Positions 1,979 through 63,490 of a stretch of 64,000 bases of DNA are shown one piece after another. Within the stretch, counting starts at the first letter, position 1, and each line of letters starts with the position of its first letter. The stretch covers positions 26,099,501 to 26,163,500 of the forward strand of contig CM050454.1 of the NCBI GenBank assembly GCA_027563935.2, given 5' to 3'. The translations under genes were made by a program, and so were the position numbers. Under the pieces are notes generated by a model that searched no databases, had not been told where the DNA came from, and worked only from the letters and a program-made list of their open reading frames with translations. The DNA is from Costus lasius. Its lineage: Eukaryota > Streptophyta > Magnoliopsida > Zingiberales > Costaceae.

Positions 1979-2588
1979 AGATCTGGTCTGATCATGTTTG
2001 ATTGATTAGGACTTGAGATCGGTAAGCTTCGATCGAGAGAGTTGATGCTAGATCGGTGAGATCAGGAGCATCAGGAGATGAACGGTTAGATCTGGAGCCT
2101 TAGGGTTTAATAGTGATCTAGACCAAATGCTTGGGTTGATTGATCTTTGAACCAAATTGAAATGCATTCAATTTGCTTGAACCGGTTCACATGAGTGAAC
2201 GCATGGTTCAATGCATGAAGGCATTTTCTTTGGTCGGTTATGAGATCATGGGTGCATGACTTCTATTTTTGGAAAGTCATGAAGGCCACTTCCCTCAACG
2301 CCTCAACGCCAAAAACGAAAAAGCGTTCGCTTCTTCCTTTGGACGCTCACACTCTCGTGGGTTGAAGGTGTTGACGACAAGGAGGTCTCGGCTAAGCAAC
2401 CAAGTCATCTCATCCCTTCCATTCGACAAGCACCCTTGGAGAACCTTGCTAGCACAAGGAACACAAGGAGTAGTCATCATCCTCTTGTGTGCGTCACCTT
2501 TGGAGGAGAGCCCTTTCGCCATCTTCTTCCAAGACGCCATTCGAATCAATGGCTATGGTATGTTTTCATTTGATCCATACAAGATAGT
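1979..2588 (+). repeat. Cop-A 5' LTR, first visible part (R/U5)
   Basis: Similarity to the family LTR starts at AGATCTGGTCTGATCATG. It includes a stem (ATGACTT at 2256-2262 pairing with AAGTCAT at 2274-2280) around a TATTTTT loop, and the conserved ATGGCTATG at 2549-2557 followed by the donor-like GTATGT at 2558. Cop-B inserted 31 bp after that donor. The upstream half of the LTR is missing or replaced by the diverged sequence before 1979. Confidence 0.8.
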
Positions 2589-3750
2589 TGTTGGGGTATG
2601 CCCTTAAGGCTAATGTTTGAGGCCTTGGGATTGTATCAGTATCATGTAATAAACTCTTATGTTTATAAAGGCATGGTTGTTATTCAGGTTGTTATATTGT
2701 CTGCTGCAATAATTGTACTTCTGAATAATGTCTCAAAGCTGTTCAGCTAGGCTGACATGCTGTAATGTCCTTAGTCGATATATCTTGGTGAACATGAGAC
2801 AGCCTTGATATGATTGAGACTAATATGTGTTCTAATCTTATAGGATGCTTCGAGCATGGAATAAGAGGTAGACTCATGGGTACATTGGATGTACTGGACA
2901 GACCCTACTAGGATATTCAATTGTTTGTCACAATGTGAATAATCCTTGATTGCGACAAGTGGCACATTTCCTCTGACTTGAGATCACTTGTGTTTTCTAA
3001 ATGATGATTGTCATTATTTTGAGTTAGTTCAATATCATTTGAAACATAATGATTATAGGCTATCTTGGATGGTGAGCTTGAGTCAGGTTAGGGCACTAGT
3101 GATAGACAAAGGATTGCCGTCTCCTTAATTGGAGTGTGATGTTCTAAAGGGGCCCCCTAGATGAGATGATTGAGAATAGTGTATGGCCATACCCAGGTGA
3201 CTATGTTCATCTGATCTAATCATGCTCATCATATTGGAGTTACAAGCTTGACACGCTTGTCCAATAAGAACATCCAGTGGCAAAGGATTTATGCATGCCT
3301 TGTGAGTTGGTTCACACTTGTGCTGTTTTTGGGTGTAGTCTTGGAAGACTCTTTTCTTTATATCGGGAGACAGTGATGTGTTGCTAGATACCCCTCACTG
3401 ATCGTGATAACGTGAGTTATCGTTATCGACATTTAAAGGAAACCCTCAGGGTCGCACAATTTGATGATATGGCTTACTTGAGTCAGATCGTGTGGACTGA
3501 ATTGTTCAGGTTCAGTTTAAAGGGATTTAATTTCTGATTGTAAGTGAGATCTAGTCTGATCATGTTTGATTGATTAGGGCTTGAGATCGGTAAGCTTCGA
3601 TTGAGAGAATGGATGCTGGATCGGTGAGATCAGGAGCATCGGGAGATGAACGGTCAGATCAAGTACCTTAGGGTTTTAATGTGATCTGGACTTATGGCTT
3701 GATTTATTTGGTTATTGAACCAAATTCAAGTGAACCGGCTCATGAATGAG
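2589..3750 (+). repeat. Cop-B 5' LTR, part 1
   Basis: It starts TGTTGGGGTATGCCC. The part ends at ATGAG, the target duplicated by Gyp-1. It carries the family palindromes GTATGGCCATAC (about 3182) and GATAAC-GTGA-GTTATC (about 3408), and a weak TATA-like TTTATATC (about 3358). The LTR resumes at 23296. Confidence 0.92.
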
Positions 3751-17992: not shown

Positions 17993-19777
17993 GGTGTTCG
18001 TTGCTGCAGGAATCTACAACAAGCAAGAACAGCAAGGTCAGTATCAATGTTCAGAATCAATCCAGGACTTTAAGAAAGATTCTTTTTCTCACTATTTTGT
18101 CTGACTGAAAAATCCAGAAAACAGTCCGAAAGAGTAACACTCTTTTAGTGAGATGGGATCCAGATTTCATACTTGGTCTCCGCGTCCCGCTCAGGCGAGA
18201 TAAGATGCACAGAGATGACAAGCATTAATTTCTGGTAGGCTGTCCCAGCCAATCGCCAACCCGTGCGATTCCCCTTCATCTGGGCAATCCAGCAGACTGT
18301 GCCAACTGAGTTGGTACAACACAGTCTCTGACCCCACAGATGGCTGCCTCCATGCACTACCATATGCGCCACATATGTAGTCTACATGGTCAAGCTGACC
18401 TGACCTACTCCCTGGACCACCACGTGCTATGCTGAGCAACGAGAAGGGATAAATCCCTACTCTATAACACGCAGGTGTAATCCCGCACTGTCTGAAGATA
18501 GATGGACGTGCCCACTGAGTGGGTTCAACACGGCTCCAACGATAGTCAGAACAGTGAGGTTTCGCGCCAGAAGGCATTACGTGCTTGATATATTAGCGTT
18601 GGATTTTAACGGTCTTTTATCTTCTTAACTATCATACAAGTCCTATGGTGATAGCAGAAGATAAACACATGCAATTCTAATTATATAAGCAATAAATAGA
18701 AAGCATGATCTTATGTGGTAAAAGCCCATGAACCCTAGTAAGACCTTAATTTTACTTAAGTCTTCACTTGAGCTCTTTTGCATCTCATCTGGTCCAACCC
18801 AGGGCCCTAGCGCCAAGAGCACCTCAGGTGCGCCACCAGCTGAATGCCCCTCTTGGATGTGTGCTTTTATGCCCTTGTCTAATCAAAAACATTTTGATCT
18901 ATCTAGACAAGCTTTGACTCGCAGGTCAATTATACAATAGATTAATAAAAAAATGTGATTCGCAGATCACAATAATATTAACTTATAATTAACCAGGCAC
19001 GCAGGCCCCAGCACAGCACACAATAGGGCAACCCACATAAGAATAAATAAACAAGCACATGGTCTCAATCATCATGTGATCCAATCAAGAAATTAAATTT
19101 TGAAAACCCCATAGGCATCAATTTTAACTTCCTTATGTGCCCTACAACCTTACAATGGTACATTGATAGGGATCCACTCATCCATCTAGTTAGATCCTGT
19201 GCCCTTGCATGCACCGAGTCCTAACTGACCCGAGTTGACCTAATGGTCAACCATGCATGCGCTAAGGGCTGAACAACCAACAAGAGTTCTGGCAAGCGGG
19301 TGTGACCCCGGGCCTAACTCAAGAGTGTTCATTGGTTGTCTCAACCAGACCTCGCTACACGCCTTTGATGCAGTCAACCTATAGCCACCTCATGCTTGCG
19401 CACAGGTGCTATCTGGTCAACCCATCTAGGCTGTCAGATGGTCTGATCAGACTAGTTTGATCTAACCTAGAGGTGACTTCAGCCCCATCAACCCATCTAA
19501 GGGTTTATAGTAGGTGGCACTTTAGATCTAGTCATAGGCGCGCAAGTTAGGGTTTTGTTTGATAAAACAACATAAACTAAGCGCCAACTCAAGACATGCG
19601 ACATCATGAACAAACAACATGCGCCTAGATAAGTAAACATCTTACTTTCGCATGGAGAAATAGCATGTCAATTTTCCCATGTGAACAAGATCTAAGCATA
19701 CATGAAGATGCGCAAACATGGATCACGGAAATATCAAGCAATCATATTAACATGCTTCAACCTGCTCTGATACCAAT
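17993..19777 (-). other. Cop-C leader region (untranslated, structured)
   Basis: No convincing gene. On the minus strand, from the primer site towards gag, are the palindrome GTCTGATCAGAC (19441-19452), the empty site of the tRNA-like insert (ATGCCCCT at 18844-18851), then the two related hairpins CCCACTGAGTGGG (18511-18523) and CCAACTGAGTTGG (18302-18314) 209 bp apart. A predicted intron runs from 19938 to 18014, ending at a TTGTAG acceptor 21 bp before gag. A 128-codon open frame (18191-18577) overlaps the hairpins but is broken in most sister copies, so I do not call it a gene. Confidence 0.7.
19764..19775 (-). promoter_or_regulatory. Cop-C primer binding site (initiator tRNA-Met)
   Basis: On the minus strand TGGTATCAGAGC starts two bases inside the 5' LTR, which is the standard position. 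Confidence 0.92.
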
Positions 19778-21496
19778 TGTAGGGTCCCCTTCAAGGGGGA
19801 GCGCAAGCATGTGAAACCCCTTTCAAGAGGGGGGCGAAAACACTAAAGGGGGTGGCGCATAACTTTGATAGCGGAAGCATGTGTTTTCAACGATTTTAGC
19901 ATGAGCATATGATCAACTTGAATGAGTTAGATCTATACCATAGCCATAGAGTTGGAGGTCGGCTTGGAAGAAGAGATCGAATAGGGGTCTCCTCCACAAG
20001 ATGCGCACACAAGATGAGGATGCGCTCACTTCCTTGGTGCTCCTTGTGCTAGCAAGGTTCCAAGAGTTGTCCTTGATCGAGTAAAGAGAAGAGATGATCA
20101 CTTCCTTTGGTTGGCCGGTCCTTCTCTTGTCGTCCACACCCAAATTCTCTCAAGTCTCGTCGAGCAAGAGCAAGGAGACAAGAGTTCAATGAGCCTTCAA
20201 GCCGTTTTGGCGTTTCAAGGAGACATGCGCTCAATGACTTTCCAAAAATGGAAAATCCATTAAGCCATGCGTTCTCACTTCTAGCAAACCGCCCAAAACG
20301 CTTTATGGATCGAACCATGGGTTCACCCATGTGAACCGGTTCAATCCAAATTGGTCCAAACCAATTTGGTTCAAAGACCAAACCAAGCCAATCGGTCTAG
20401 ATCAACCAAACCCTAAGGTTTCCAATCTAACCGTTCATCTCATGATGCTCTTGATCTCACCGATCTTGCATCAATACTCTCGATCGAAGCTTACCGATCT
20501 CAAGCCCTAATCAATCAAACATGATCAGACTGGATCTCACTTACAATCAGAGTTTAAACTCCTTTAAACTGAACCGAAACAATTCAGTCCACACGATCTG
20601 ACTCAAGTAAGCCATATCATCAAATTGTGCGACCCTGAGGGTTTCCTTTAAATGTCGGTAACGATAACTTACGTTATCACGATCAGTGAGGGGTATCTAG
20701 CAACACATCACTGTCTCCCGATATAAAGGAAAGAGTCTTCCAAGACTACACCCAAACCACAGCATAAGTGTGAATCAAACTCACGAGGCATGCATGTTTC
20801 CTTTGCCACTGGATGTTCTTATTGGACAAGCATGTCAAGCCTGTAACTCCAATATGATGAGCATGATTAGATCAGATGATCATAGTCATCTGGGTATGGC
20901 CATACACTATCTCAATCATCTCATACAGGGGGGCCCTTTAGAACATCACACTCCTTGAACAAGGAGACGGCAATCCTTTATCTATCACTAGTGTCCTAAC
21001 CTGACTCAAGCTCATCATCCAAGATAGTCTATAATCATTATGTTTCAAATGATATTGAACTACCTCAAAACAATGACAATCATCATTTAGAAACACAAGT
21101 GATCTCAAGTCGAAGGACATGTGCCACTTGCTGCTATCAAGGATTATTCACATTGTGACAAACAATTGAATATCCTAGAAGGGTCTGTCCAGTACATCCA
21201 ATGTACCCATGATTCTACATCTTATTCCATGCTCGAAGCATCCTATAAGATTAGCACACATATTAGTCTCAATCATATCAAGGCTGTCTCATGTTCACCA
21301 AGATATCTCGACTAAGGACATAGAGCCTGTCAGCCTAGCTGAACAGCTTTGAGACATTATTCAGTAGTACACTTATTATTGCAGACAAGGTAACAACCTG
21401 AATAATAACCATGCCTTTATAAACATAAGAGTTTATTACATGATACTTATACAATCCCAAGGCCTCAAACATTAGCCTTAAGGGCATACTCCAACA
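19778..21496 (-). repeat. Cop-C 5' LTR
   Basis: This is a 1719-bp LTR. The conserved start-plus-donor is at 19947-19937 (ATGGCTATG then GT). A hairpin with TTTCC (20239-20243) and GGAAA (20250-20254) arms surrounds a six-base loop. The CCCC/GGGG hairpin at the U5 end (GTCCCCTTCAAGGGG on the plus strand from about 19784) lies beside the primer site. Confidence 0.96.
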
Positions 21497-21501
21497 GCCC
21501 C

Positions 21502-23290
21502 CGCCGGGTCACGACGTGGCACTTTGCTCTACGACACCCCATATCACAAAAAGAGAGTGATGACATCAAGAGGTGGCCCCTGTCCGACCAAGACATGGCA
21601 CTTTGCGTCAAAACTCGTTCTCCCAAAAGGTTCCTACTAGACAACAAACACATCTTATATCATATTTCATAAAGGTGGACTCCTAAGTGTCAACTAGACT
21701 CTAGGATAGTCATCACAAAAATCATATCGGGCAGGCTGAACATCAACCCCCATCACAATAATCATAATAGGCAGGCTGAACATCAACCTCCTCACATATC
21801 AAATACAGGGCTGAAATTCAAACCCTTAACATATCACATAAGGACTATCCTATGAGTACACGGTTACACTTAGCCATAGTCCTAACCAACACATAACACA
21901 TAATATTCAAAATTCACATAATCCATCACATAACACATATTGTTCAAAATTCACATAACCCATACTATTCGAAAATCACATAACATAACACATAATATTT
22001 CATATTCGAATATCACATAATATAGTGTAGTCCTTAGATTTCATGCTGATTAGTTTAGTCAAACCTTGCTATGTTATCACCCAAATTTCTCAAACAATTA
22101 AATAACAGGCTACACACCTAAATTAAATAACATGCTACACACCTAAATAAACAGTCATGGATTGTAATTAACACACATCCAAAAATCATTACAACACATA
22201 TAACCCACGGTTTTACAACATGTCATCTATTTAAAATTTAAACTCTAGTTAACAAGAATGTCATGCTCAAAATTCACTAATTTAAAACTACCTAAATTCC
22301 ATAACATCAACATAAAATTATAGCATGTAATTGTCTTTATAATCCTCATGTAAACATGTTAATTTTAGTTTTTCATAAATAATACCAAATTTCGGTTGTC
22401 ATGAATAATTTATCATAAATAATATCAAGATTTCGGATTATCATGAAAATTATCAAGAATTCGGTTTACATGAAAGAACATCTCAATTTTGGTTTTCATC
22501 CCCTAAATTCGGTTTTAACATGGTAGAAATTCCAAGAACTCAAATGTATCATGTCACAAACACAACTAAATTCATAGGTCAAACAAGACATTCCACTCAC
22601 CTCTTAAACCGAGAATACTAAGGTTAAAATCTTCCCAAAAAAAACTCGCCTAAAGCCTTGATGTCGCCCAAAGGATCTCCAAGAACTCACCAAGGAAGTT
22701 TCACCTCAAGGAAATTCGCCAAGGGGAAGAAGATGGAGAAAATCGCCAAGAACTCTTCAAGAATACTAAGATCGCCTTCTTCCTTGCCCTAGCCGCCCCA
22801 AGATTTCCTCAAGCCAAAAATCGTTAATTCTTCCTTCCCTAACCGAAATACCCACTAAAAATTCGGTTTTTAATTTTTAACCCATTAACCAATTAATTCA
22901 AATAGGGTTTAATCCATTTAACTAATAAATTTGAATTTCAAACCCAATTAGCGCCAACCCAAAAAAAAAACTCATAATTAACAATTAATTTAACCATCCA
23001 CTAACCATTCACTTAACGAAATCCATTAAGGATTTAATTAACATCCAATAAGGATTTAATTAACCAATAAGGTCTAATTAATTAACTTACAATTTACAAC
23101 CCATAAATCCTAATTAATTTATCATGAACAACCAATAATAATTTATCATAAATTAACAGCCAATAATCAAATAAATAATCTCTAATTAATTAACTATTAA
23201 CAACCAATACATAGAAAAATATCACAGTCAATAATTTTAGACAAAAATCAAAATAATGCTTACCAAGACTTAAGATCCTTGGATCTTACA
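21502..23290 (-). repeat. Gyp-1 5' LTR, distal part
   Basis: The Gyp-1 LTR continues after the Cop-C target duplication and matches 4772-6560. Differences seen include TTTTAG against TTTCGG near 22363 and single changes near 21639, 22524, 22823 and 22981. There is no gene in it. Confidence 0.93.
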
Positions 23291-23295
23291 ATGAG

Positions 23296-23804
23296 CGCAT
23301 GGTTCAAGGGTGAAGTGGAGTTTGCGAATGGGTAAACCCATGATCGCATGAAGAGAAGTGGCATGCTATTTTTAGATAGCACTTCTCTTACGTGACCCTC
23401 TCTCACGTTCACGCCTTTCCTCCTTTCGTTAGTCGCCTTGTCTCTTGCTCTTGACGAGAGAACATACGGTGGTGAAGAGCTCGACGAGGAGGAAGAAAAA
23501 GAATCGCCAAGCCAAGACATCTCTTCCCTTCCACTCGACAAGGACATCTTTGGGCCTTGCTAGCACAAGGATCGCAAAGGGAGTAGGCGACATCAACTGT
23601 GTGCGTCACCTCTGGAGAAGATCAAGTTTGATCTTTGCTTCCAAGGCGCCATCTAGAAATGGCTATGGTATGATCCTTCTCTATTTGCAATTGGGTCATT
23701 TTTGTTAATCATACAGCATGCAAGATCTAGAAACCCCCTTTCCGCTGCTTTCATTCCCATATGCGCCTATGAGTTAGGGTTTCGCCCCCTTGTGGGGACC
23801 TTCA
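23296..23804 (+). repeat. Cop-B 5' LTR, part 2 (U5 end)
   Basis: The LTR continues after the Gyp-1 target duplication with CGCATGGTTCAAGG and ends GGGGACCTTCA. It carries ATGGCTATG (23659-23667), the donor-like GTATGA (23668) and the terminal hairpin CCCCC-TTGT-GGGG (23785-23797). Confidence 0.92.
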
Positions 23805-23806
23805 AT

Positions 23807-23818
23807 TGGTATCAGAGC
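23807..23818 (+). promoter_or_regulatory. Cop-B primer binding site (initiator tRNA-Met)
   Basis: TGGTATCAGAGC lies two bases after the 5' LTR end. Confidence 0.92.
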
Positions 23819-24111
23819 ATGGTTAACGCATGTTTTATGATTACTTATGCCATTTTGTGATCCTTGTTTGCGAACTTATGATTAGATCTAAGGTTACATG
23901 CGATACATCTTGTATATGTAAGTGGCGAAAATGCATTGCATTGTTTCTCCTTGGCGCATGTATAAGGTTACCTTTTGTTGGCGCTTGTATGTTGTTGGTT
24001 TTCTCAAAACTATATTACATGCGCGATTCACACTAGATCTAAGCTGTCCTTACTGTAAACCCTTAGACGGGTTACTAGGGTTGAAGTCATCCCCTAGGTT
24101 AGATCCAGACA

Positions 24112-24123
24112 GTCTGATCAGAC
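24112..24123. promoter_or_regulatory. Leader palindrome GTCTGATCAGAC, candidate dimerisation site
   Basis: This perfect 12-bp palindrome lies about 300 bp after the primer site. It recurs in Cop-C (19441-19452), Cop-D (34909-34920), Cop-E (48427-48438) and Cop-A (57370-57381), and with one change in Cop-F (63767-63778). A self-complementary loop in a packaged leader is how retroviral genomes start to dimerise; that role here is inference. Confidence 0.4.
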
Positions 24124-24723
24124 CATCTGACAGCCTTGATGGGTTGACCAGATAGCACCTGTGCGCAAGCACCTGGTGGCTATAGGTCGACTGCAGACAG
24201 GCGTGTAGCGATGTCTGATTGAGACAACCTATGAACGCACATGAGTTAGGCCCGGGGTCACACCCGTTTGCCAGACCTCATTGTGGTTGTTCAGCCCTGG
24301 CGCATGCATGGTTGACCTTTTGGTCGACTCAAGTCAGTTAGGACTTGGTGCATGCAAGGGCAGTGGATCTGTCTAGGTTGGATGAGTGGATCCCTAGTAA
24401 TGGACCGTTGTAAGGTTATAGGGCACATAAGGAAAAATAAAATTGATCTCAATGGGATTTTTCAAAAATTTTATTTTTCATGATTGGATCAAATGATGTA
24501 TGATGCCATATGCATGTTTATTTATTCTTATGTGGGCTGCCCATGTTAAATGTGTGCTGTGCTGGGGCCTGCGTGCCTGGTTAAAAGTTGTAAATTAATT
24601 TTATTGTGATCTGCGCATCACATTGCATTTAATTTATAAAATGTAATTGACCTGCGAGTCAATCTTGTCTAGATAGATTAATTTGTAAATTAATCAGACA
24701 AGAGCACAGAGCACACTTGGCAG

Positions 24724-24788
24724 AGGCGCATGCAGCAGTGGCTAGACCAGGTGGGAGGTCCAGGGTTCGACTCTGGGACCAGGCGCAT
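24724..24788 (+). repeat. Short tRNA-like insert flanked by AGGCGCAT repeats (Cop-B leader)
   Basis: A 49-bp segment (24732-24780) is bounded by direct repeats AGGCGCAT. It has a B-box-like GGTTCGACTCT inside a pairable stem (GGTCCAG with CTGGGACC) and a weak A-box-like TGGCTAGACCAGG. The Cop-C leader has a single AGGGGCAT at the matching place and no insert. It looks like a very short tRNA-derived (SINE-head-like) insertion with an 8-bp target duplication; loss by recombination between the repeats in Cop-C is the alternative. Confidence 0.55.
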
Positions 24789-25118
24789 TTACCTGGTGGG
24801 CGCACCTGAGCTGCAGATGGCGCTTGGGCCCTGGTTTGGGCCAGATGAGCAGCAAAAGCCCCATGAAGAAAAGCAAGTGAAGACTTAAGTTCTTAAGGTC
24901 TTACTAGGGCTATGGGCTTTTACCACATAAGATTCATGCTTTCTTTTATTGTTTAATAAGTAGAATAGCATGATTTATTTATCTTCTGCTATCACCATAG
25001 GAATTGCATGATAGTGAAGAAGATAAAAGACCGTTAAAATCCAACGCTAAAATATCAAGCTCGTATGCCTTCTGACGCGAAACCTCACTGTTCTGATTAT
25101 CGTTGGAGCCGTGTTGTA

Positions 25119-25340
25119 CCCACTCAGTGGGCACGTCCATCTATCTTCAGACGGTGCGGGATTACACCTGCGTGTTACAGAGAAGGGATTTATCGCTTCT
25201 CGTTGCTCAGCATAGCACGTGGTGGTCCAGGGAGTAGGTCGGGTCAGCTTGACCATGTAGGCTACATATGTGGCGCATATGGTAGCGCATGGAGGCAGCC
25301 ATCTGTGGGGTCAGAGATTGTGTTGTACCAACTCAGTTGG
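25119..25340 (+). other. Paired covarying hairpins in the Cop-B leader
   Basis: Two copies of TGTTGTACC-x-ACTCAGT-y-GGCAC start 209 bp apart. The first stem is CCCACTCAGTGGG (25119-25131), the second CCAACTCAGTTGG (25328-25340). The C-to-A change is matched by G-to-T on the other arm, so pairing is kept. Both are also in Cop-A, Cop-C, Cop-D and Cop-E. A packaging or gag-binding role is inferred. Confidence 0.5.
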
Positions 25341-25649
25341 CACAGTCTGCTGGATTGCCCAGATGAAGGGGAATCGCACAGGTTGGCGATTGGCAGGGAC
25401 TGCCTACCAGAGATTAGTGCTTGTACTCTCTGTGCATCTTATCTCGCCTGAGCGGGACGCGGAGACCAAGTATGAAATCTGGATCCCATCTCACTAAAAG
25501 AGTACTACTCTTTCGGGCTGTTTTGCTGGATTTTTTAGCCAGATAAAATAGTGAGAAAAAGAATCTTTCTTAAGTCCTGATTGATTCTTAACATTGATAC
25601 TGACCTTGCTGTTCTTGCATTGTTGTAGATACCTGCAGCAACGAACACC

Positions 25650-28600
25650 ATGAGCTTCAATGTGCGATCCCTACTGGAAAGAGAGAAGTTTGCTGGGCCG
25701 AACTTCTCAGACTGGTTCGGACACCTTAAGATAGTTCTTAAGGCAGAGAGGAAACTGTATGTCCTCGAGACGGCGATACCGCCTCAGCCCGCTCCGAACG
25801 CCGCAAGGGCGGTTCGGGAAGCCTATGAAAAGCACGTCAATGATAGCATTGATGTCGCTTGCCTGATGCTAGCGTCTATGACGCCACCGCTGCAGCGTCA
25901 GCATGAGGATATGTCTACCATAGACATGATAGCAAACCTCAAGATGCTGTATGCTGCACAGGCGAGGACAGAACGCTATAATTTGACAAAGCTGTTCTTT
26001 CAGAGCAAACTGGCTGAAGGGAGCCCAGTGGGAGCTCACGTGCTCAAGATGATTGGGCACAAGGAGGCTCTAGAAAAACTGGGGCATACCATCAACCAGG
26101 AGCTTGCTGTAGACATTATTCTGCAGTCTCTTCCGCCTTCTTTCGATGCGTTCATTATTAACTTTAATATGAACAAAATCGATTGTACTCCGGCAGAGCT
26201 GCTGAATATGCTCTTGACTACTGAGGAAACTCTGAAGGGTAAGCCTTCAACCTCTGTCTTGATGGTTCCTTCGAGGAACAAGAAGAAGGGGACGAAGGGC
26301 AAGACCCCTGTCAAGAGTTACAGCAAGGCTCTGAAGCAGAAGGTTAAGCGGTCCAAGGAATACAGGTGTTTCCACTATGGCCAGCTGGGTCACTGGAAAA
26401 AGGACTGTAAAGCGCTCCAAGGAGACAAGAGGGGAAGCCTTGCTTCTGGCTCAGGTATATACGTGACGGAAGTCATGGTTTCATCTTCTTCTATATCATG
26501 GGTGTTGGACACTGCATGTGGAGTTCACATTTGTTCAAATGTACAGGAACTCAAGAGAAGAAGGCAGGTGGGACAGCATGAGGTGGACCTACGAGTTGGA
26601 AACGGGGCACGGGTTGCTGCTGTTGCTGTAGGAGACTATTTCATCTCTTTGCCATCTGGGCTTGTATTAGAACTAAACAGTTGTTACTTTGTTCCCAGTA
26701 TCACTAAAAATATTATCTCTATTCCTGCTCTTGTCAGGAAAGGGTTTTCCTTTGAATGCAATATTTCAAAGTGTGTTTTATCTCTTGATAATATAGTTTA
26801 TGCTACTGGTTCAATTAATAATGGGTTATTCATGTTGGACATGGAATGTTCTATACACGCGATTGATATTAAGAAAGCCAAGTATGCTGATGACAGCACC
26901 TTGCTATGGCATAGTCGTTTAGGCCATATTAACAAGAAACGCATTAAGCGGTTGCATGATCATGGACTGCTGGGATCATTCTCCTATAAGGAGATTGATA
27001 CATGCAAGGCTTGTTTAATGGGTAAAATGACGAAGTCACCTTTTTCTAACAAAGGTCAAAGGGCTTCAGGTTTACTTGACCTTATACACAGTGATGTGTG
27101 TGGGCCATTTAGTAAACATGCCAGAGGTGGCTATCAGTACTTCATTACCTTTACTGATGATTTCAGTAGGTATGGGTATGTCTATCTAATGAGACATAAA
27201 AGTGAATCTTTTGACAAGTTCAAAGAGTTCAAGAATGAAGTACAAAATCAGCTAGGCCGAAATATCAAGGCACTTCGTTCTGATCGAGGTGGAGAATACC
27301 TAAGTCGAGAATTTACTGACTATCTGAAGGAGTGTGGGATTATCTCACAGCTCACTCCGCCAGGAACACCGCAATGGAATGGTGTGTCCGAAAGGAGAAA
27401 TAGAACGTTACTTGATATGGTTCGTTCTATGATGAGTCAGGCTACTCTACCTTACTCCTTTTGGGGATTTGCACTGGAAACAGCTGCAAAGGTACTAAAC
27501 CGAGTGCCATCCAAGGCAGTTTCTAAGACGCCATATGAGTTATGGTATGGGAAACAGCCGAGCTTGACATTTATCAGGATCTGGGGTTGCGAGGCTTATG
27601 TCAAAAAGCTCGCCTCTAGGAAACTAGAGAGCAGATCTGACAAATGTATCTTTGTCGGTTACCCTAAGGAAACTAAGGGTTATTATTTCTACGATCCCAA
27701 AGAGAACAAGGTATTTGTTGCTCGGACGGCTATATTTCTTGAGAAGGAGTTTCTTCTGCAAGAGGCCAGTGGGAGAGAAATAAAGCTGGATGAAAATCCA
27801 GAGGAAGGACAAAGTGCGCAAGCACAGTTGGATGAGCCTGAGCTGGTAGAACAGGTTATTGAACAACCTGAGGCTCAGATATCACGGGAACCGCGAAGAT
27901 CGGGAAGGATCCGTCGACAGCCTGAGCGCTATGACGGAGTCTACATCATTGATAATGATGAACCCCTCACTTATGCGGATGCGGTCAGAGGACCGGAGTC
28001 AGCGAGATGGCTTGAAGCTATGCGCGCCAAGATGGACTCCATGTCAGATAACCAAGTTTGGGATTTGGTTGATCCGCCTCCGGGAGTTATCCCTATAGGC
28101 TGTAAATGGATCTTCAAGAAGAAGATTGACATGGATGGTAACGTGGTTACCTATAAAGGCAGGCTAGTTGCGAAAGGTTTCAAACAAATCTACGGGATAG
28201 ATTATGATGAAACTTTCTCACCTGTAGCTATGTTTAAGTCTATTCGGATTCTTTTCGCGATAGCTGCATATTATGATTATGAGATTTGGCAAATGGATGT
28301 GAAGACAGCTTTCCTTAATGGAAATCTGGATGAGGATGTGTATATGACACAACCAGAAGGTTTCACTAATCCATCAGATCGTCATAAGATATGCAAGTTA
28401 AAGAAGTCTATTTATGGACTTAAACAAGCATCTAGAAGCTGGAATATTCGTTTTGATGAATCAATCTCTGAGTTTGGTTTCATCAAGAACGAGGATGACC
28501 CGTGTGTATATAAGAGGTTTAGTGGGAGCGTGATTACTTTCCTAGTCCTCTACGTCGATGATATCTTGATCATTGGAAATGACATTCCTGAAATGCATGC

Positions 28601-29205
28601 CGTAAAGGCATGGTTAAGGAAATGTTTCCAGCTGAAAGATCTAGGAGAAGCAGCCTATGTGTTAGGTGTGAAGATCTACAGGGATAGATCTAAGAGGCTT
28701 CTCGGGCTGTGCTAGAGTACTTACATCGATAAAGTCCTGGAGAGATTTCATTTAGAGAATTCTAAAAGAGGATATCTTCCAGTCAGACATGGTCTGAATC
28801 TTTCGAAGAGTCAGTGTCCACAAACACAGACTGAGAAAGATGAAATGGACAATACGCCTTATGCATCGGCTATTGGATCCATTATGTATGCGATGTTGTG
28901 TACTCGCCCAGACGTTGCTTACGGGTTAAGCGTGACCAGTCGGTTCCAAAGTAATCCAGGTATGGCGCACTGGATTGCAGTCAAGAACATTTTAAAATAT
29001 CTGCGGAGGACCAAAGATATGTTCTTGATATATGGTGGTCAGGAAGAACTCAGTATTGAAGGATATACTGACGCTTCGTTCCAGTCAGACCAGGATGATT
29101 TCCGATCACAATCAGGCTATGTTTTTACCTTGAATGGAGGAGCAGTGGTGTGGAAGAGTTTCAAACAGTCAACTGTTGTTGATTCCACAACAGAAGCGAG
29201 TATGT
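25650..29205 (+). pseudogene. Cop-B gag-pol, inactivated
   Basis: The frame opens MSFNVRSLLE and runs to a TAG at 28713-28715, where Cop-E has a glutamine codon, after residue 1021. That leaves gag, protease, integrase and most of RT, including YVDD. The frame then continues in register (28845 onwards) into RNase H until about 29197, where one base is lost and foreign sequence begins. A second lesion is in the zinc knuckle: the second cysteine is tyrosine (CFHYGQLGH). The last 110 or so codons of RNase H and the polypurine tract are missing. The protein could not support retrotransposition on its own. LTR identity and exact ends imply the defective RNA was mobilised by helper copies. Confidence 0.93.
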
Positions 29206-29365: not shown

Positions 29366-31030
29366 TGAAAGATCCCCTAGAATAAGGGGAGGTAAAACCC
29401 TATAGGCGCATATGGAGTTATAGATGCAGCGGAAAAAGGGTTTCAATGATCTTTGCATGCATTATGATTAGCTTATAAAATCAGCATGAATAAAACGATT
29501 CATACCATAGCCATTTCTAGATGGCGCCTTGGAAGAAAAATCGCAAATGCCACTTCTCCAAAGTCTCGCACACAAGAGGATGATGGCAAACTCTTTGTCG
29601 CTCCTTGTGCTAGCAAGGCTACAAAGTGTCCTTGATCGAATGGAAAGGGATGATGAACTTCTTGGCCGAATCCTCCTCAACCTTCAAGACGTCGCCACAC
29701 ACGAAAGCGTCTAGAGGAGAGGTCGCTTGAGAGGCGAAAGTAGTAAGCACTATTCGAACGTGAGCGTTATCTCCAAGTGGAGATCATGGTTACTAAAAAT
29801 AGCCACCACGTTCGCTCCAATGTTCACGCCAAGTGAACAACTCGCCAAGCCTTGAACCATGCACTCATTTCATGAGCCGGTTCACATTGGTTCGGTTTAA
29901 GAACTAATCAAGCCAAGCAACCAGTCCAAATCATAATTAAACCACAAGGTTCTTGATCTGACCGTTGATCTCTTAATGCTTCTGATCTGACCGATCTAGC
30001 ATTCATTCTCTCGATCGAAGCTTACCGATCTCAAGCCCTAATCAATCAAACATGATCAGACCAGATCTCACTTACAATCAGAGATTAAATCCCTTTAAAC
30101 TGAATCCGAACAATTCAATCCATACGATCTGACTTAAGTAAGCCATATCATCAAATTGTGCGACCCTGAGGGTTTCCTTTAAATGTCGGTAACGATAACT
30201 CACATTATCACGATCAGTGAGGGGTATCTAGCAACACATCACTGTCTCCCGATATAAAGGAAAGAGTCTTCCAAGACTACACCCAAAAACAGCACAAGTG
30301 TGAATCAACTTCACAAGGCATGCATAATTCCTTTGCCACTTGATGTTCTTATTGGACAAGCCTGTCAAGCTTGTAACTCCAATATGATGAGCATGATTAG
30401 ATCAGATGAACATAGTCACCTGGGTATGGCCATACTCTTTTCTCAATCATCTCATCCAGGGGGCCCCTTTAGAACATCACACTCCTTAAACAAGGAGACG
30501 GCAATCCTATGTCTATCACTAGTGCCCTAACCTGACTCAAGCTCACCATCCAAGATAGTCTATAATCATTATGTTTCAAATGATATTGAACTACCTCAAA
30601 ACAATGACAATCATCATTTAGAAAACACAAGTGATCTTAAGTCAGAGGAAATGTGCCACTTGTCATACTCAAGGAATATTCACATTGCGACAAACAATTG
30701 AACATCCTAGTAGGGTCTGTCCAGTACATCCCATGTACCCATGAGTCTACATCTTATTCCATGCTCGAAGCATCCTATAAGATTAGAACACATATTAGTC
30801 TCAATCATATCAAGGCTGTCTCATGTTCACCAAGATATCTCGACTAAGGACTTAACTGCATGTCAGCCTAGCTGAACAGCTTTGAGACATTATTCAGAAG
30901 AACATATATTGCAGCAGACAATGTAACTAACTGAATAACAACCATGCCTTTATAAACATAACAGTTTATTACATGATACAGATACATTCCCATAGGCCTC
31001 AAACATTAGCCTTAAGGGCATACCCCAACA
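29366..31030 (-). mobile_element. Solo copia LTR, inverted, in the Cop-B 3' LTR
   Basis: A 1665-bp LTR in minus orientation (TGAAAG...CCCCAACA on the plus strand) has target duplication GTTTG (29361-29365 and 31031-31035) and no internal sequence. That is the usual product of LTR-LTR recombination after a full insertion. On its coding strand it keeps ATGGCTATG followed by GTATGA, and the terminal CCCC/GGGG hairpin. With the host LTR that follows immediately in the other orientation it forms a long inverted repeat. Confidence 0.93.
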
Positions 31031-32675: not shown

Positions 32676-32680
32676 ATAGT

Positions 32681-32795
32681 TAAGTTGATCATATATCATA
32701 CATGCGATTGTTGAAACCCTAGTTTCCGCTATGCCAAAAATCTTGATGCGCATAATAGGGTTTATTTCGCCCCCCTCATGAAAGGGGTTCCTACA
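32681..32795 (+). repeat. Cop-A 5' LTR end
   Basis: The LTR of Cop-A resumes after Cop-B and ends GGGGTTCCTACA. It keeps the terminal hairpin form (CCCCC-TCATGAAA-GGGG). Confidence 0.85.
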
Positions 32796-32797
32796 AC

Positions 32798-32929: not shown

Positions 32930-34628
32930 TGTTGGGGTATGCCCTTAAGCCTAATGTTTGAGGCCTTGGGATTGTATCAGTATCATGTAATAAACTCTTA
33001 TGTTTATAAAGGCATGGTTGTTATTCAGGTTGTTATATTGTCTGCTGCAATAATTGTACTTCTGAATAATGTCTCAAAGCTGTTCAGCTAGGCTGACATG
33101 CTGTAATGTCCTTAGTCGAGATATCTTGGTGAACATGAGACAGCCTTGATATGATTGAGACTAATATGTGTTCTAATCTTATAGGATGCTTCGAGCATGG
33201 AATAAGATGTAGACTCATGGGTACATTGGATGTACTGGACAGACCCTACTAGGATATTCAATTGGTTGTCACAATGTGAATAATCCTTGAATGCGACAAG
33301 TGGCACATTTCCTCTGACTTGAGATCACTTGTGTTTTCTAAATGATGATTGTCATTGTTTTGAGGTAGTTCAATATCATTTGAAACATAATGATTATAGA
33401 CTATCTTGGATGGTGAGCTTGAATCAGGTTAGGGCACTAGTGATAGATATAGGATTGCCGTCTCCTTGTTTAAGGAGTGTGATGTTCTAAAGGGGCCCCC
33501 TGGATGAGATGATTGAGAAAGTGTATGGCCATACCCAGATGACTATGTTCATCTGATCTAATCATGCTCATCATATTGGAGTTACAAGCTTGACACGCTT
33601 GTCCAATAAGAACATCCAGTGGCAAAGGAATTATGCATGCCTTGTGAGTTGGATTCACACTTGTGCTGTGGTTTGGGTGTAGTCTTGGAAGACTCTTTCC
33701 TTTATATCGGGAGACAGTGATGTGTTGCTAGATACCCCTCACTGATCGTGATAACGTGAGTTATCGTTACCGACATTTAAAGGAAACCCTCAGGGTCGCA
33801 CAAATTGATGATATGGCTTACTTAAGTCAGATCGTGTGGACTGAATTATTTGGGTTCAGTTTAAAGGGATTTAATCTCTGATTGTAAGTGAGATCTGGTC
33901 TGATCATGTTTGATTGATTAGGGCTTGAGATCGGTAAGCTTTGATCGAGAGATTGGATGCTAGATCGGTGAGATCAGGAGCATCAAGAGATGAACGGTTA
34001 GATCTGGAGCCTTAGGGTTTAATTAAGATCTAGACTGGATCGCTTGGCTTGGTTGGTTCTTGAACCGAACCAAATTGAACCGGCTCATTATATGAGCGCA
34101 TGGTTCAAAGGGAGATGGCGTGGTGATTCATTCACTTGGCGTGAACGTGTGAGCGAGTTGTGGTTTCTATTTTTAGAAACCATGATCTCCACTTGGAGAT
34201 CTCTCATGTTCGAATAGGGGATATCCTATTCTCGCTCGGCTCCCTATCGTGACCTCTCTCGCTCTCGACACTTTTGTGTGTGGCGACGCTTGAAGCCATT
34301 GAGGAGGAGGACTCGGCCAAGAAGGATCAACATCTCCATCCCTTTCATTCGACAAGGACCCTTTGAAGGGCTTTGCTAGCACAAAGGCTTCAAAGGAGTG
34401 AGCGCATCGATCTTCTTGTGTGCGTCTACTTTGGAGAAGGTTCATTTGCGCCTTTGCTTCCAAGGCACCATCAAACCGATGGCTATGGTATGAGTTCTTC
34501 TTCATCCATTCAATCATATAAAAGTTAATTTTATGACATATAAAGATCTCATGAAACCCTAGCTTCCCATGCGATGATTTTGTTATGCGCCACCAATAGG
34601 GTTTCCCCCTTTAGTTAGGGGACTTTCA
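32930..34628 (+). repeat. Cop-D 5' LTR
   Basis: This is a 1699-bp LTR (TGTTGGGGTATGCCC...GGACTTTCA). Landmarks: GTATGGCCATAC palindrome (about 33522), weak TATA-like TTATATC (33702-33708), a 7-bp stem with six-base loop (34162-34181), ATGGCTATG (34479-34487) then GTATGA, and terminal hairpin CCCCC-TTTAGTTA-GGGG (34605-34621). Confidence 0.95.
33702..33708 (+). promoter_or_regulatory. Possible TATA element of the family LTR
   Basis: TTATATC within CTTTCCTTTATATCGGG is kept in all LTRs of the main family, about 770 bp from the LTR start. It is the best TATA-like site I see, but it is weak. A start near 33735 would leave a leader exon of about 750 nt before the predicted donor. Confidence 0.3.
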
Positions 34629-35581: not shown

Positions 35582-36447
35582 TTTCCCTGGTAGGCGCACC
35601 TGAGCTGCAGATGGCGCTTGGGCCCTGGGTTGGGCCAGATGAGCAGCAAAAGACCCATGAAGGAAAAGCAAGTGAAGACTTAAGTATCTTAAGGTCTTAC
35701 TTAGGCTATGGGCTTTTACCACATAAGATCCATGCTTTCTTTTATTGTTTAAATAAGTAGAACAGCATGATTTATTTATCTTCTGCTATCACCATAGGAA
35801 TTGCATGATAGTGAAGAAGATAAAAGACCGTTAAAATCCAACGCTAAAATATCAAGCTCGTATGCCTTCTGACGCGAAACCTCACTGTTCTGATTATCGT
35901 TGGAGCCGTGTTGTACCCACTCAGTGGGCACGTCCATCTATCTTCAGACGGTGCGGGATTACACCTACGTGTTACAGAGAAGGGATTTATCGCTTCTCGT
36001 TGCTCAGCATAGCACGTGGTGGTCCAGGGAGTAGGTCGGGTCAGCTTGACCATGTAGCCTACATATGTGGCGCATATGGTGGCGCATGGAGGTAGCCATC
36101 TGTGGGGTCAGAGATTGTGTTGTACCAACTCAGTTGGCATAGTCTGCTGGATTGCCCAGATGAAGGGGAATCGCACGGGTTGGCGATTGGCTGGGACAGC
36201 CTACCAGAGATTAGTGCTTGTACTCTCTGTGCATCTTATCTCGCCTGAGCGGGACGCGGAGACCAAGTATGAAATCTGGATCCCATCTCACTAAAAGAGT
36301 TCTACTCTTTCGGGCTGTTTTGCTAGATTTTTCAGCCAGATAAAATAGTGAGAAAAAGAATCATTCTTAAGTCCTGAATTGATTCTTTACATTGATACTG
36401 ACCTTGCTGTTCTTGCATTGTTGTAGATTCCTGCAGCAACGAACACC

Positions 36448-46461: not shown

Positions 46462-48145
46462 TGTTGGGGTATGCCCTTAAGGGTAATGTTTGAGGCCTTG
46501 GGATTGTATCAGTATCATGTAATAAACTCTTATGTTTATAAAGGCATGGTTGTTATTCAGTTTGTTACATTGTCTGCTGCAATAATTGTACTTCTGAATA
46601 ATGTCTCAAAGCTGTTCAGCTGGGCTGACATGCAGTTTTGTCCTTAGTCGAGATATCTTGGTGAACATGAGACAGCCTTGATATGGTTAAGACTAATATG
46701 TGTTCTAATCTTATAGGATGCTTTGAGCATGGAATAAGATGTAGACTCATGGGTACATTGGATGTACTGGACAGACCCTACTAGGATATTCAATTGCTTG
46801 TCACAATGTGAATAATCCTTGAATGCGACAAGTGGCACATTTCCTCTGACTTGAGATCGCTTGTGTTTTCTAAATGATGATTGTCATTGTTTTGAGGTAG
46901 TTTAATATCATTTGAAACATAATGATTATAGACTATCTTGGATGGTGAGCTTGAATCAGGTTAGGGCACTAGTGATAGATATAGGATTGCCGTCTCCTTG
47001 TTTAAGGAGTGTGATGTTCTAAAGGGGCCCCCTGAATGAGATGATTGAGAATAGTGTATGGCCATACCCAGATGACTATGTTCATCTGATCTAATCATGC
47101 TTATCATATTGGAGCTACAAGCTTGACACGCTTGTCCAATAAGAACATCCAGTGGCAAAGGAAAGATGCATGCCTTGTGAGTTGGATTCACACTTGTGCT
47201 GTGGTTTGGGTGTAGTCTTGGAAGACTCTTTTCTTTATATCGGGAGACAGTGATGTGTTGCTAGATACCCCTCACTGATCGTGATAACGTGAGTTATCAT
47301 TACCGACATTTAAAGGAAACCCTTAGGGTCGCACAATTTGATGATATGGCTTACTTAAGTCAGATCGTGTGGACTGAATTGTTTGGGTTCAGTTTGAAGG
47401 GATTTAATCTCTGATTGTAAGTGAGATCTGGTCTGATCATGTTTGATTGATTAGGGCTTGAGATCGGTAAGCTTTGATCGAGAGATTGGATGCTAGATCG
47501 ATGAGATCAGGAGCATCAAGAGATCGACGGTCATATCAAGAGCCTTAGGGTTTAATGTGATCTGGACTAATGGCTTGGGTCGATTGGTCTATGAACCAGA
47601 CCAAATTGAACCAGCTCATTGAGTGAGCGTGTGGTTCAAATTGAGAGGAGTTTGCGCATGGGGTAAACTCATGATCGCAAGTGAGTGAGTGGCTTTCTAT
47701 TTTTAGAAAGCATGATCACATACGTGACCACTACTCACGTTCACGCCTAAGGTGCCCTCATCTCTAGTTTCTCCTCACTCTCGTCGCCAACTTGGGCATT
47801 CAGCACTCGCACTCTCGTGTGGTGAAGAAGTTGACGAAAAAGAGAAGGAAGAGTTCGGCCAAAGCAAAGTGATCTTTCCCTTCCATTCGACAACGGCTTC
47901 TTGGAACCTTGCTAGCACAAGGAGCACCAAGGAAGAGTAGGCGACACCAATTGTGTGCGTCACCTTTGGAGAAGGAGCACTTGCGCCTTTCCTTTCAAGA
48001 CACCATCTAAGCGATGGCAATGGTGAGAATCGTTTTAAGTTGAACATATTATATGCATAGATCCTTAAAACCCCTTCCGCTGCATCAAAATTGTCATATG
48101 CGCCTCCTATAGGGTTTCGCCCCCTTGTCTTTAGGGGACCTTTCA
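46462..48145 (+). repeat. Cop-E 5' LTR
   Basis: This LTR is 1684 bp. It carries the stem 47692-47698 with 47705-47711, ATGGCAATG (48014-48022) followed by GTGAGA, and the terminal hairpin CCCC-TTGTCTTTA-GGGG. A TAA lies two codons before the ATG in frame. Confidence 0.95.
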
Positions 48146-48147
48146 AT

Positions 48148-48160
48148 TGGTATCAGAGGC
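48148..48160 (+). promoter_or_regulatory. Cop-E primer binding site with an extra G
   Basis: TGGTATCAGAGGC has one more G than the TGGTATCAGAGC of the other copies. As this site is copied from the tRNA at each round, the change should be later than insertion. It may weaken primer pairing beyond 11 nt. Confidence 0.85.
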
Positions 48161-49100: not shown

Positions 49101-49962
49101 TTTCCCTGGTGGGCGCACCTCAGCTGCAAATGGTGCTTGGGCCCTGGGTTGGGCCAGATGAGCAGCAAAAGACCCATGAAGAAAAGCAAGTGAAGACTTA
49201 AGTTAATTAAGGTCTTACTTAGGCTATGGGCTTTTACCACATAAGATTCATGCTTTCTTTTATTGTTTAAATAAGTAGAACAGCATGATTTATTTATCTT
49301 CTGCTATCACCATAGGAATTGCATGATAGTGAAGAAGATAAAAGACCGTTAAAATCCAACGCTAAAATATCAAGCTCGTTAGCCTTCTGACGCGAAACCT
49401 CACTGTTCTGATTATCGTTGGAGCCGTGTTGTACCCACTCAGTGGGCACGTCCATCTATCTTCAGACGGTGCGGGATTACACCTGCGTGTTACAGAGAAG
49501 GGATTTATCGCTTCTCGTTGCTCAGCATAGCACGTGGTGGTCCAGGGAGTAGGTCGGGTCAGCTTGACCATGTTGGCTACATATGTGGCGCATATGGTAG
49601 CGCATGGAGGCAGCCATCTGTGGGGTCAGAGATTGTGTTGTACCAACTCAGTTGGCACAGTCTGCTGGATTGCCCAGATGAAGGGGAATCGCACGGGTTG
49701 GCGATTGGCAGGCAGCCTACCAGAGATTAGTGCTTGTACTCTCTGTGCATCTTATCTCGCCTGAGCGGGACGCGGAGACCAAGTATGAAATCTGGATCCC
49801 ATCTCACTAAAAGAGTCCTACTCTTTCGGGCTGATTTGCTGGATTTTTCAGCCAGATAAAATAGTGAGAAAAAGAATCTTTCTTAAGTCCTGATTGATTC
49901 TTAACATTGATACTGACCTTGCTGTTCTTGCATTGTTGTAGATCCCTGCAGCAACGAACACC

Positions 49963-57206: not shown

Positions 57207-57211
57207 AGATG

Positions 57212-61805: not shown

Positions 61806-63490
61806 TGTTGGGGTATGCCCTTAAGGCTAATGTTTGAGGCATTGGGAATGTATCAGTATCATGTAATAAACTCTTATGTTTATAAAGGCATGGTTGTTAT
61901 TCAGTTTGTTACATTGTCTGCTGCAATAAGTGTACTTCTGAATAATGTCTCACAGCTGTTCAGCTGGGCTGACATGCTATAAAGTCCTTAGTCGAGATAT
62001 CTTGGTGAACATGAGACAGCCTTGATATGGTTAAGACTAATATGTGTTCTAATCTTATAGGATGCTTCGAGCATGGAATAAGATGTAGACTCATGGGTAC
62101 ATTGGATGTACTGGACAGACCCTACTAGGTTATTCAATTGCTTGTCACAATGTGAATAATCCTTGATTGCAACAAGTGGCACATGTCCTCTGACTTGAGA
62201 TCACTTGTGTTTCTAAATGATGATTGTCATTGTTTTGAGGTAGTTCAATATCATTTGAAACATAATGATTATAGACTATCTTGGATGGTGAGCTTGAGTC
62301 AGGTTAGGGCACTAGTGATAGACATAGGATTGCCGTCTCCTTAATTTGAGTGTGATGTTCTAAAGGGGCCCCCTGGATGAGATGATTGAGAAAAGAGTAT
62401 GGCCATACCCAGGTGACTATGTTCATCTGATCTAATCATGCTCATCATATTGGAGTTACAAGCTTGACACGCTTGTCCAATAAGAACATCCAGTGGCAAA
62501 GGAAACATGTATGCCTTGTGAGTTGATTCACACTTGTGCTGTGGTTTGGGTGTAGTCTTGGAAGACTCTTTCCTTTATATCGGGAGACAGTGATGTGTTG
62601 CTAGATACCCCTCACTGATCGTGATAACGTGAGTTATCGTTACCGACATTTAAAGGAAACCCTCAGGGTCGCACAATTTGATGATATGGCTTACTTAAGT
62701 CAGATCGTGTGGACTGAATTATTCAGGTTCAGTTTAAAGGGATTTAATCTCTGATTGTAAGTGAGATCTGGTCTGATCATGTTTGATTGATTAGGGCTTG
62801 AGATCGGTAAGCTTCGATCGAGAGAATGGATGCTAGATCAGTGAGATCAGCAGCATCAAGAGATCGACGGTCAGATCAAGAGCCTTAGGGTTTAATAGGA
62901 TCTGGACTAATGGCTTGGGTTGATTGGTCTTTGAACCAAACCAAATTGAACCGGCTCATTGAGTGAGCGCATGGTTCAAGAGAAGATGAGTTTGCGCATG
63001 GGGTGAACCCATGATCGCATGAACATTTGGGGTTTACTAAATTTAGAAGCCATGACTTCTAAACGTGGGAACACCTCACGTTCACGCCTAAGACGCTCTC
63101 ATCTCTCGTCTCTCCTCATCTCTCGTCGCCAACAAGCTCTCTTGAGAGTGGTGAAGAGGTTGACGAAAAAGGAGAAGGAAGAAATCGCCAAGCAAAGGAT
63201 TCTCTTCCCTTCCATACGACAAGGACCTCTTGGAGCCTTGCTAGCACAAGGAGCACCAAGAGAAGAGTAGGCGACATCAATTGTGTGCGTCACCTTAGGA
63301 GAAGGAGCATTTGCGCCTTTCCTTCCAAGACACCATCTAAGCGATGGCAATGGTAAGAATCGCTTTTCATTGAAAGTTGAATATATTACATGCTATGCGA
63401 TCCTGTTAGAAACCCTAGATTCCGCTAGAGTTTTGTTGTGCCTCCTATTAGGGTTTCGCCCCCCCCCCCCCTTGTTATAGGGGACTTTCA
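61806..63490 (+). repeat. Cop-F 5' LTR
   Basis: This is a 1685-bp LTR ending GGGGACTTTCA. ATGGCAATG (63344-63352) is followed by GTAAGA, the best donor match of all copies. A run of 13 C (63459-63471), where sister LTRs have five or six, forms part of the terminal CCCC/GGGG hairpin. Confidence 0.9.

Follow-up and report, generated by a model that had tools for sequence, protein, structure and literature searches.

A putative leader intron joining a start codon in the long terminal repeat to gag in a Ty1/copia retrotransposon family of Costus lasius

The DNA analyzed here, called the window throughout, comprises 64,000 nucleotides of the genome of Costus lasius (Zingiberales, Costaceae; assembly GCA_027563935.2, contig CM050454.1, positions 26,099,501 to 26,163,500 of the forward strand) and, according to self-comparison, is a nest of long terminal repeat (LTR) retrotransposons. 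One large family is represented by the elements Cop-A (the oldest, split by later insertions), Cop-B, Cop-C (on the minus strand), Cop-D, Cop-E and Cop-F, hereafter A to F, and by a solo LTR, and judged by its sequence this family is a Ty1/copia LTR retrotransposon. The gag-pol start codon of this family is very probably encoded within the LTR and joined in frame to gag by the removal of a leader intron, a proposal made in a preliminary description of this DNA and supported by our sequence tests, chiefly by copies that lack the gag ATG and still keep an open, constrained frame upstream. The basis for this reading at the sequence level is a conserved block in the LTR, a donor, a branch-like site, an acceptor, an ATG-poor exon followed by an ATG-rich intron, a preserved frame and the constrained ATG-less copies; from these features we infer the splicing itself, the transcription start site and the separate fates of spliced and unspliced RNA.

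Start codon and candidate donor in the LTR

The motif ATGGC(T/A)ATGGT is present in all seven LTR types and in the 3' LTR copies of B, C, D and E (Table 1), and the preliminary description, according to which every LTR checked carries ATGGC(T/A)ATG followed by a donor-like GT, was correct for all sites and spellings. In a global alignment of six LTR types, from which Cop-A, ending 38 nt past the ATG, was excluded, the mean pairwise identity without gaps was 0.69 over the 100 nt 5' of the ATG and 0.94 within ATGGCWATG, and it fell to 0.58 over the 60 columns that follow and to 0.53 over the remainder of U5. With gaps scored as mismatches, these four stretches gave 0.67, 0.94, 0.45 and 0.38 in the six types, and 0.67, 0.95, 0.41 and 0.40 when the Cop-A row was included. 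Since the start block sits in a fast-changing block of the element, its conservation is informative. Across the genome (1.28 Gb), the exact 14-mer ATGGCWATGGTATG, which includes start and donor, was found 19,649 times, against 43 occurrences of the reversed pattern.

The bases that follow the GT vary (ATGT, ATGA, GAGA, AAGA and ATAG) and are still mostly donor-like. Among the GTs of the whole leader region the candidate donor ranked first of 138 in B, first of 134 in D, third of 136 in E and eighth of 134 in C, and within 400-nt stretches it ranked first of 24 in A, first of 17 in F and first of 16 in the solo LTR; these ranks are more usable than the scores, the splice-site matrix being rounded and approximate. 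Positions +3 to +6 after ATGGT were also more donor-like than those of 179 other ATGGT sites of the window, with a joint p for the five spellings printed as 0.0000 (20,000 random draws of five) and single-spelling probabilities of 0.017-0.246, Cop-C being the weakest.

Upstream of the start block, a TATA-like CTATTTT lies at -293 from the LTR ATG in both LTRs of Cop-B and at -286 to -317 in A, D, E and the solo LTR, while its variants are CTAAATT at -307 in Cop-F and CCATTTTT in Cop-C. The putative exon 1, counted from 30 nt past this motif up to the LTR ATG, contains one ATG in the 1,897 nt of the seven LTR types, against 42 CAT and 5-24 of each of the other orders of A, T and G. No ATG occurs in the 255 nt 5' of the LTR ATG in the seven types (mean of 13.7 and minimum of 5 in 2,000 shuffles), a span that was chosen after the ATG positions were seen, and the same span of 20 further 5' LTRs (5,100 nt) holds 7 ATG against 114 CAT, none of the ATGs being nearer than -192. 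In-frame stop codons just 5' of the LTR ATG, which had also been described, were confirmed within 60 nt in B, E and F and were lacking in A, C, D and the solo LTR. Two motifs in the putative 5' untranslated region (5'UTR), TTGCTAGCACAA and TGTGTGCG, are invariant in all seven LTR types between -109 and -57.

The leader intron and its acceptor

The proposed introns of B, D, E and C measure 1,961, 1,939, 1,919 and 1,925 nt and contain 51, 51, 48 and 52 ATGs, respectively. At their 3' ends, the five readable leaders (A to E) carry TACTGAC, a T-rich tract and TTGTAG followed by 21 nt to the gag ATG, as had been reported, with Cop-C one base short in the T-rich tract. The candidate acceptor ranked second, second, second and third among the 143-153 AGs of the B, D, E and C leader regions, and the junction positions proposed earlier (25629, 36427, 49942 and 18013) are correct. 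When the two ends are joined, B, E and C read MAMIPAATNTM and Cop-D, with ATT for ATC, encodes the same peptide, so that the earlier claim of an LTR ATG in frame with gag through seven codons held in all four elements. The acceptor itself includes a TAG in the gag frame, and thus only spliced RNA would allow the seven codons 5' of the gag ATG to be read.

The primer binding site (PBS) TGGTATCAGAGC, which we take to be a match to the initiator-Met tRNA, adjoins the LTR in B, C, D and F. In B, C and D it is part of the proposed intron, as claimed for the excised part in general; Cop-E carries at 48148 the last-base variant TGGTATCAGAGG, despite its ORF of 1,295 aa and its LTRs of 99.1% identity.

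The exon 2 head is also part of a predicted 9-bp hairpin with the acceptor (-9.8 kcal/mol in a 41-nt piece; z of -2.4 to -2.9 over three pieces). Synonymous variation in this head is not put forward as proof of coding, the window copies varying at two sites only (GCT/GCA and ATA/ATT/ATC), and in the larger copy sample described below the second codon changes its amino acid (P, T or S).

The LTR ATG might instead represent a short regulatory upstream open reading frame (uORF), with gag reached from unspliced RNA by shunting or re-initiation as in plant pararetroviruses, which we regard as quite improbable. Without splicing, the LTR ATG opens an ORF of 4 codons in B, D, the solo LTR and C and of 9-12 codons in E, F and A, a shunt-like layout, and the available excerpts on rice tungro bacilliform virus describe a leader uORF that is used for both shunting and splicing. 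However, neither the peptide beyond MAMV nor the position of the stop is conserved, and an enclosing fold around almost all of the leader is predicted for B and C and absent from D and E. The quality of donor and acceptor would be left unexplained by a uORF, as would the open and constrained frame 5' of codon 80 in the ATG-less copies described next, in which the ribosome would need to land on a non-AUG codon.

Copies without the gag ATG

Further copies were drawn from about 100 listed places of ATGGCWATGGTATG on one contig, using the 5' members of pairs that are mostly 7.3-7.5 kb apart. Twenty copies were read through to gag and 13 at the gag head only, and one of these (L051, from a pair 9.1 kb apart) was without a gag head and was dropped, leaving 32. 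All 32 keep TTGTAG|AT and the seven-codon head. The gag ATG is present in 23 of them, and the other nine carry ACA (five copies) or ACG (four copies) at its position, in frames such as ITAATNTTNFNVRSLLE. This subgroup is diverse (L012, L013, L015, L017, L022, L023, L055, L057 and L061).

Six of the ATG-less copies were followed along the frame, which has its first ATG at codon 80 and runs into a stop after 413-1,061 codons. Their 5' and 3' LTR pieces are 97.2-100% identical, which points to fairly recent copying. Over 325 codons these six gave a pN/pS of 0.18 (526 synonymous and 336 non-synonymous pairwise differences), and over codons 1-80 a pN/pS of 0.33 (94 and 100), compared with 0.12 and 0.14, respectively, in the four window copies with the gag ATG. 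A clade of four ATG-less copies (support of 0.935 from the gag head) gave 0.16-0.30 per pair over 325 codons. The frame 5' of codon 80 thus looks translated in copies without a gag ATG, the constraint in the clade of four being modest, and an LTR ATG joined by splicing would be the simplest start for such copies.

Three other explanations bear on these copies. If the intron were real but purely 5'UTR, splicing would serve to remove upstream ATGs, gag would use its own ATG and the LTR ATG would be incidental. The gag ATG is indeed present in 23 of the 32 further copies and in all five window copies, with A at -3; nevertheless, splicing would place the LTR ATG in the gag frame, its context is good, no other ATG precedes it in the putative exon of six of the seven window types, and nine of the 32 copies have no gag ATG at all, while their frame before the next ATG stays open and constrained, so that this explanation appears distinctly unlikely. 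Initiation at a near-cognate ACG, or internal initiation at the gag head, is the least probable of the alternatives. ACG is a known near-cognate start codon and occurs in four of the nine copies, but the other five carry ACA, the in-frame TAG within the acceptor excludes an unspliced N-terminal extension, and about 50 ATGs precede the gag head.

The ATG-less copies could also be parasites without Gag that move in trans like barley BARE2, and would then be uninformative on the LTR ATG. According to the excerpts consulted, BARE2 is regarded as a parasite of BARE1, its gag start having been removed by a conserved 8-bp deletion; besides, all six ATG-less copies read here reach a stop within 413-1,061 codons, and in the clade of four the pN/pS of codons 1-80 is 0.49 (27 synonymous and 42 non-synonymous differences), higher than in the window copies that retain the gag ATG (0.14). 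On the other hand, the gag ATG was substituted rather than deleted in the Costus copies, all six frames stay open for 413 codons or more, pN/pS over 325 codons is 0.16-0.30 in every pair of the clade, and the group is diverse, with LTR pairs of 97.2-100% identity. We consider trans-mobilized parasites unlikely. As a separate remark, the missing gag start of BARE2, which this subgroup recalls, might merit re-examination for an upstream spliced start.

Several observations weigh against an LTR-encoded, spliced start and should be considered together. Given their stops, none of the six ATG-less copies is intact, and the pN/pS values are built on pairwise, non-independent differences; the value of only 0.49 for codons 1-80 in the clade of four indicates that part of this constraint may date from before the ATG was lost, or may have relaxed since, and selection on codons 81-325 could be explained by a start at codon 80. 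The further copies were selected by an exact GTATG donor and thus provide no test of the donor; they are informative on acceptor, frame and gag ATG. The leaders in the window are 83-97% alike, which makes their shared acceptor weak evidence when taken alone, and the predicted acceptor hairpin may be a second reason for the conservation of the exon 2 head. The donor of Cop-C, GTATAG, is weak by the approximate matrix though this element is young and has a long ORF. Finally, the sole exon 1 ATG of the window types lies in Cop-D, about 9 nt past the presumed transcription start, and five of the 20 further LTRs have 1-3 ATGs within the 255 nt before the LTR ATG.

Relatives in other genomes

Two protein searches provided 228 relatives in all (the best 120 of 279 and the best 120 of 155), those with names being plants (Hibiscus, Gossypium, Trifolium and others) and many being nameless. 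After exclusion of 77 relatives without a recognizable motif near the initial Met and of three with long fused N-termini, 82 distinct N-termini were obtained, which are gene predictions with unproven starts. Eighty-one of these 82 start upstream of the position of the gag ATG of this family, and 56 begin with Met-Ala. A typical relative begins with MANNTISLRSLLEKEK, a pattern fitted by the predicted spliced product MAMIPAATNTMSFNVRSLLEREK, and a protein started at the gag ATG would be short relative to the group; the upstream starts also argue against an intron confined to the 5'UTR. No N-terminus matching MAM-IPAATNT was found among the relatives listed, the closest of them being about 55-61% identical. 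DNA of relatives was not confirmed in viral contigs in searches with a single protein and with an alignment, and none was found in plasmid and phage records.

In a search of prokaryote genomes, one 3.6-kb contig (L001) filed under Labilibacter sediminis, which we took for a contaminant, encodes a copia Gag that is 38% identical. Within its positions 100-240 an acceptor-like CAG, TTTATTTCAG, lies directly 5' of the Gag ATG; this is a single sequence of uncertain origin and it was not used as evidence, and it may hint at leader introns that end at the gag start in other copia lineages.

Proposed mechanism and known systems

Based on the sequence features described above, we propose that the gag-pol gene is split after its third codon. 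Exon 1, within the LTR, would consist of a nearly ATG-free 5'UTR of about 260-290 nt followed by ATG GCW ATG, and a spliceosomal intron of about 1.8-2.0 kb would comprise the remaining LTR (U5), the PBS and the whole leader with its approximately 50 upstream ATGs. Exon 2 would begin 21 nt before the annotated gag ATG, which would be an internal codon that is absent from many copies. The spliced RNA would serve as the gag-pol mRNA, its protein beginning MAM-I(P/T/S)AATNT, and the unspliced RNA, which retains the PBS and leader, would be the genome. Because the PBS and leader would be intronic, the spliced message would be unable to prime reverse transcription, and with about 50 ATGs in its leader the unspliced genome would be a poor message for scanning ribosomes. 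The choice of splicing would then set translation or reverse transcription for each RNA, and the hairpin between acceptor and exon 2 could keep splicing partial.

A broader interpretation, towards which we lean with some reserve, is that signals for priming reverse transcription lie inside an intron of the only gene of the element, whose first coding exon is in the LTR, so that one splicing decision would commit each RNA to be message or genome, with the acceptor hairpin as a possible brake. Under this interpretation, every LTR that carries the motif, of which there are roughly 20,000 or more counting solo LTRs, would be a portable promoter, start codon and donor that could give host genes first exons starting with MAM.

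Parts of this arrangement are known from other elements. In yeast Ty1 the gag start lies inside the 5' LTR, differing from the arrangement proposed here in that no intron is involved. The env mRNA of Rous sarcoma virus and HBZ of HTLV-1 have a start codon on the 5' exon or in the LTR that is spliced in frame to another coding exon; the spliced start in these viruses, however, serves env or an antisense gene and not gag-pol.

The closest mechanism in the published excerpts available is that of the P4 RNA of rice tungro bacilliform virus (Tungrovirus, Caulimoviridae), in which a leader AUG with a donor in its short ORF is spliced to a distant long ORF, and the long leader with short ORFs is a further likeness. 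A layout of this kind (leader AUG with donor, distal acceptor and in-frame fusion) is present in the Costus element at the sequence level, whereas the viral splicing yields P4 and the Costus element would yield the gag-pol polyprotein from a start in the LTR. The barley Ty1/copia element BARE1, placed by the same kind of excerpts in the Angela lineage of REXdb, has separate RNA pools for translation and replication, and its capped RNA is spliced. The comparison with BARE drawn in the preliminary description holds only in a general way and does not extend to a leader intron, as the BARE1 intron is described as 104 nt long at the start of the pr domain, leading to a Gag-only RNA in which gag keeps its own start codon. 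EVADE of Arabidopsis, Ogre of pea and Medicago and copia of Drosophila are likewise LTR retrotransposons with functional introns, but in the passages accessible these introns are not in the leader and none is described with an LTR start codon. The accessible part of a 2025 review treats plant LTR elements as generally without introns and names Ogre and EVADE as exceptions. Among the open-access matches listed, in the portions of text available, no report was found of a plant LTR element in which gag-pol starts from an LTR codon by way of a leader intron, and a paper on centromeric retrotransposons likewise made no mention of one.

It has long been asked how retroelements apportion their RNA between translation and replication. 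A leader intron holding the PBS would give an answer by one step of RNA processing, and this is directly testable in a genome with such a number of exact start-plus-donor motifs. If the reading is true, the annotated gag ATG and the polyprotein N-terminus of such elements are wrong, a missing gag ATG alone is insufficient ground for calling copies dead, and LTRs of this kind could supply start codons to host genes.

Organization of the window

The coordinates of the features are given in Table 1. The LTRs of the family are about 1.65-1.72 kb long, and the 5'/3' LTR pairs of B, C, D and E are 99.1-99.9% identical (C 99.8% and E 99.1%). An LTR of about 1.7 kb and a leader of about 1.9 kb presumably resemble those of the Angela lineage, which we mention as a likeness only and not as a phylogenetic placement. 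In 500 aa of Cop-B, covering Gag and the start of pol, PF14223, PF13976 and PF22936 (Gag, gag_pre-integrase and Pol_BBD) were all over the cut-off. Long ORFs, near-identical LTR pairs and both splice sites are combined in Cop-C and Cop-E.

Table 1. Coordinates of the proposed splicing signals, start blocks and reading frames in the window
Feature	Position	Strand	Remarks
Start block, Cop-A	2549..2557	+	Donor GTATGT at 2558; own acceptor TTGTAG at 58884-58889, displaced by nested insertions
Start block ATGGCTATG (Met-Ala-Met), Cop-B	23659..23667	+	Donor GTATGA at 23668; 3' LTR copy at 32530
Start block, Cop-C	19939..19947	-	Donor GTATAG at 19938, weakest; 3' LTR copy at 12538
Start block, Cop-D	34479..34487	+	Donor GTATGA at 34488; 3' LTR copy at 57057
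Start block, Cop-E	48014..48022	+	Donor GTGAGA at 48023; 3' LTR copy at 55423
Start block, Cop-F	63344..63352	+	Donor GTAAGA at 63353; leader cut by window end
Start block, solo LTR	29506..29514	-	Donor GTATGA at 29505
TATA-like element CTATTTTTAGA, Cop-B	23366..23376	+	Start of putative promoter core; presumed transcription start about 30 nt downstream
Putative exon 1, Cop-B	23396..23667	+	5'UTR without ATG (-263 to -1), then ATG GCT ATG
Proposed leader intron, Cop-B	23668..25628	+	1,961 nt, GT...AG, 51 ATGs
PBS TGGTATCAGAGC, Cop-B	23807..23818	+	Within proposed intron
Branch-point-like TACTGAC, Cop-B	25598..25604	+	Invariant in 25 aligned copies, save a shift from one base deleted in C
Candidate splice acceptor TTGTAG, Cop-B	25623..25628	+	Rank 2 of 153 AGs in the B leader region
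Predicted 9-bp hairpin, Cop-B	25620..25641	+	Pairs acceptor TTGTTGTAG with first exon 2 codons
Head of proposed exon 2, Cop-B	25629..25649	+	Seven codons IPAATNT before annotated gag ATG; in-frame TAG precedes in unspliced RNA
Head of proposed exon 2, Cop-C	17993..18013	-	ORF follows from 17992
Head of proposed exon 2, Cop-D	36427..36447	+	ATT CCT GCA GCA ACG AAC ACC; gag ATG at 36448
Head of proposed exon 2, Cop-E	49942..49962	+	ORF follows from 49963
gag-pol ORF, Cop-B	25650..28715	+	From annotated gag ATG; 1,021 aa, shorter than C and E
ORF, Cop-C	from 17992	-	1,294 aa
ORF, Cop-E	from 49963	+	1,295 aa

Among the window copies, U3 is mostly about 92-96% alike and the body, starting some 180 nt beyond the PBS, shows a similarity of 83-97%, Cop-C being the lowest, whereas the fast-changing block, which extends from somewhat 5' of the TATA-like motif to about 180 nt past the PBS, is 44-73% alike between D and E. 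This hypervariable part (for example, E 47560-48324 compared with D) corresponds to the promoter core, the first exon, U5 and the first 180 nt or so of the leader. Template switching or escape from silencing may be the source of such a mosaic of a hypervariable block and a far more similar U3 and body.

Cop-A is a single old element cut up by nested insertions, with LTR parts at 1979-2587 and 32678-32796 and leader parts from 32798 and at 57208-58910. No ORF of at least 300 aa begins at its gag ATG (58911), and the listed ORF begins at 59127. Cop-B was inserted into the LTR of Cop-A about 30 nt past the start block of the latter, and its own 5' LTR (2588-3750 and 23290-23806) is interrupted by a nested insertion of about 19.5 kb that holds Cop-C.

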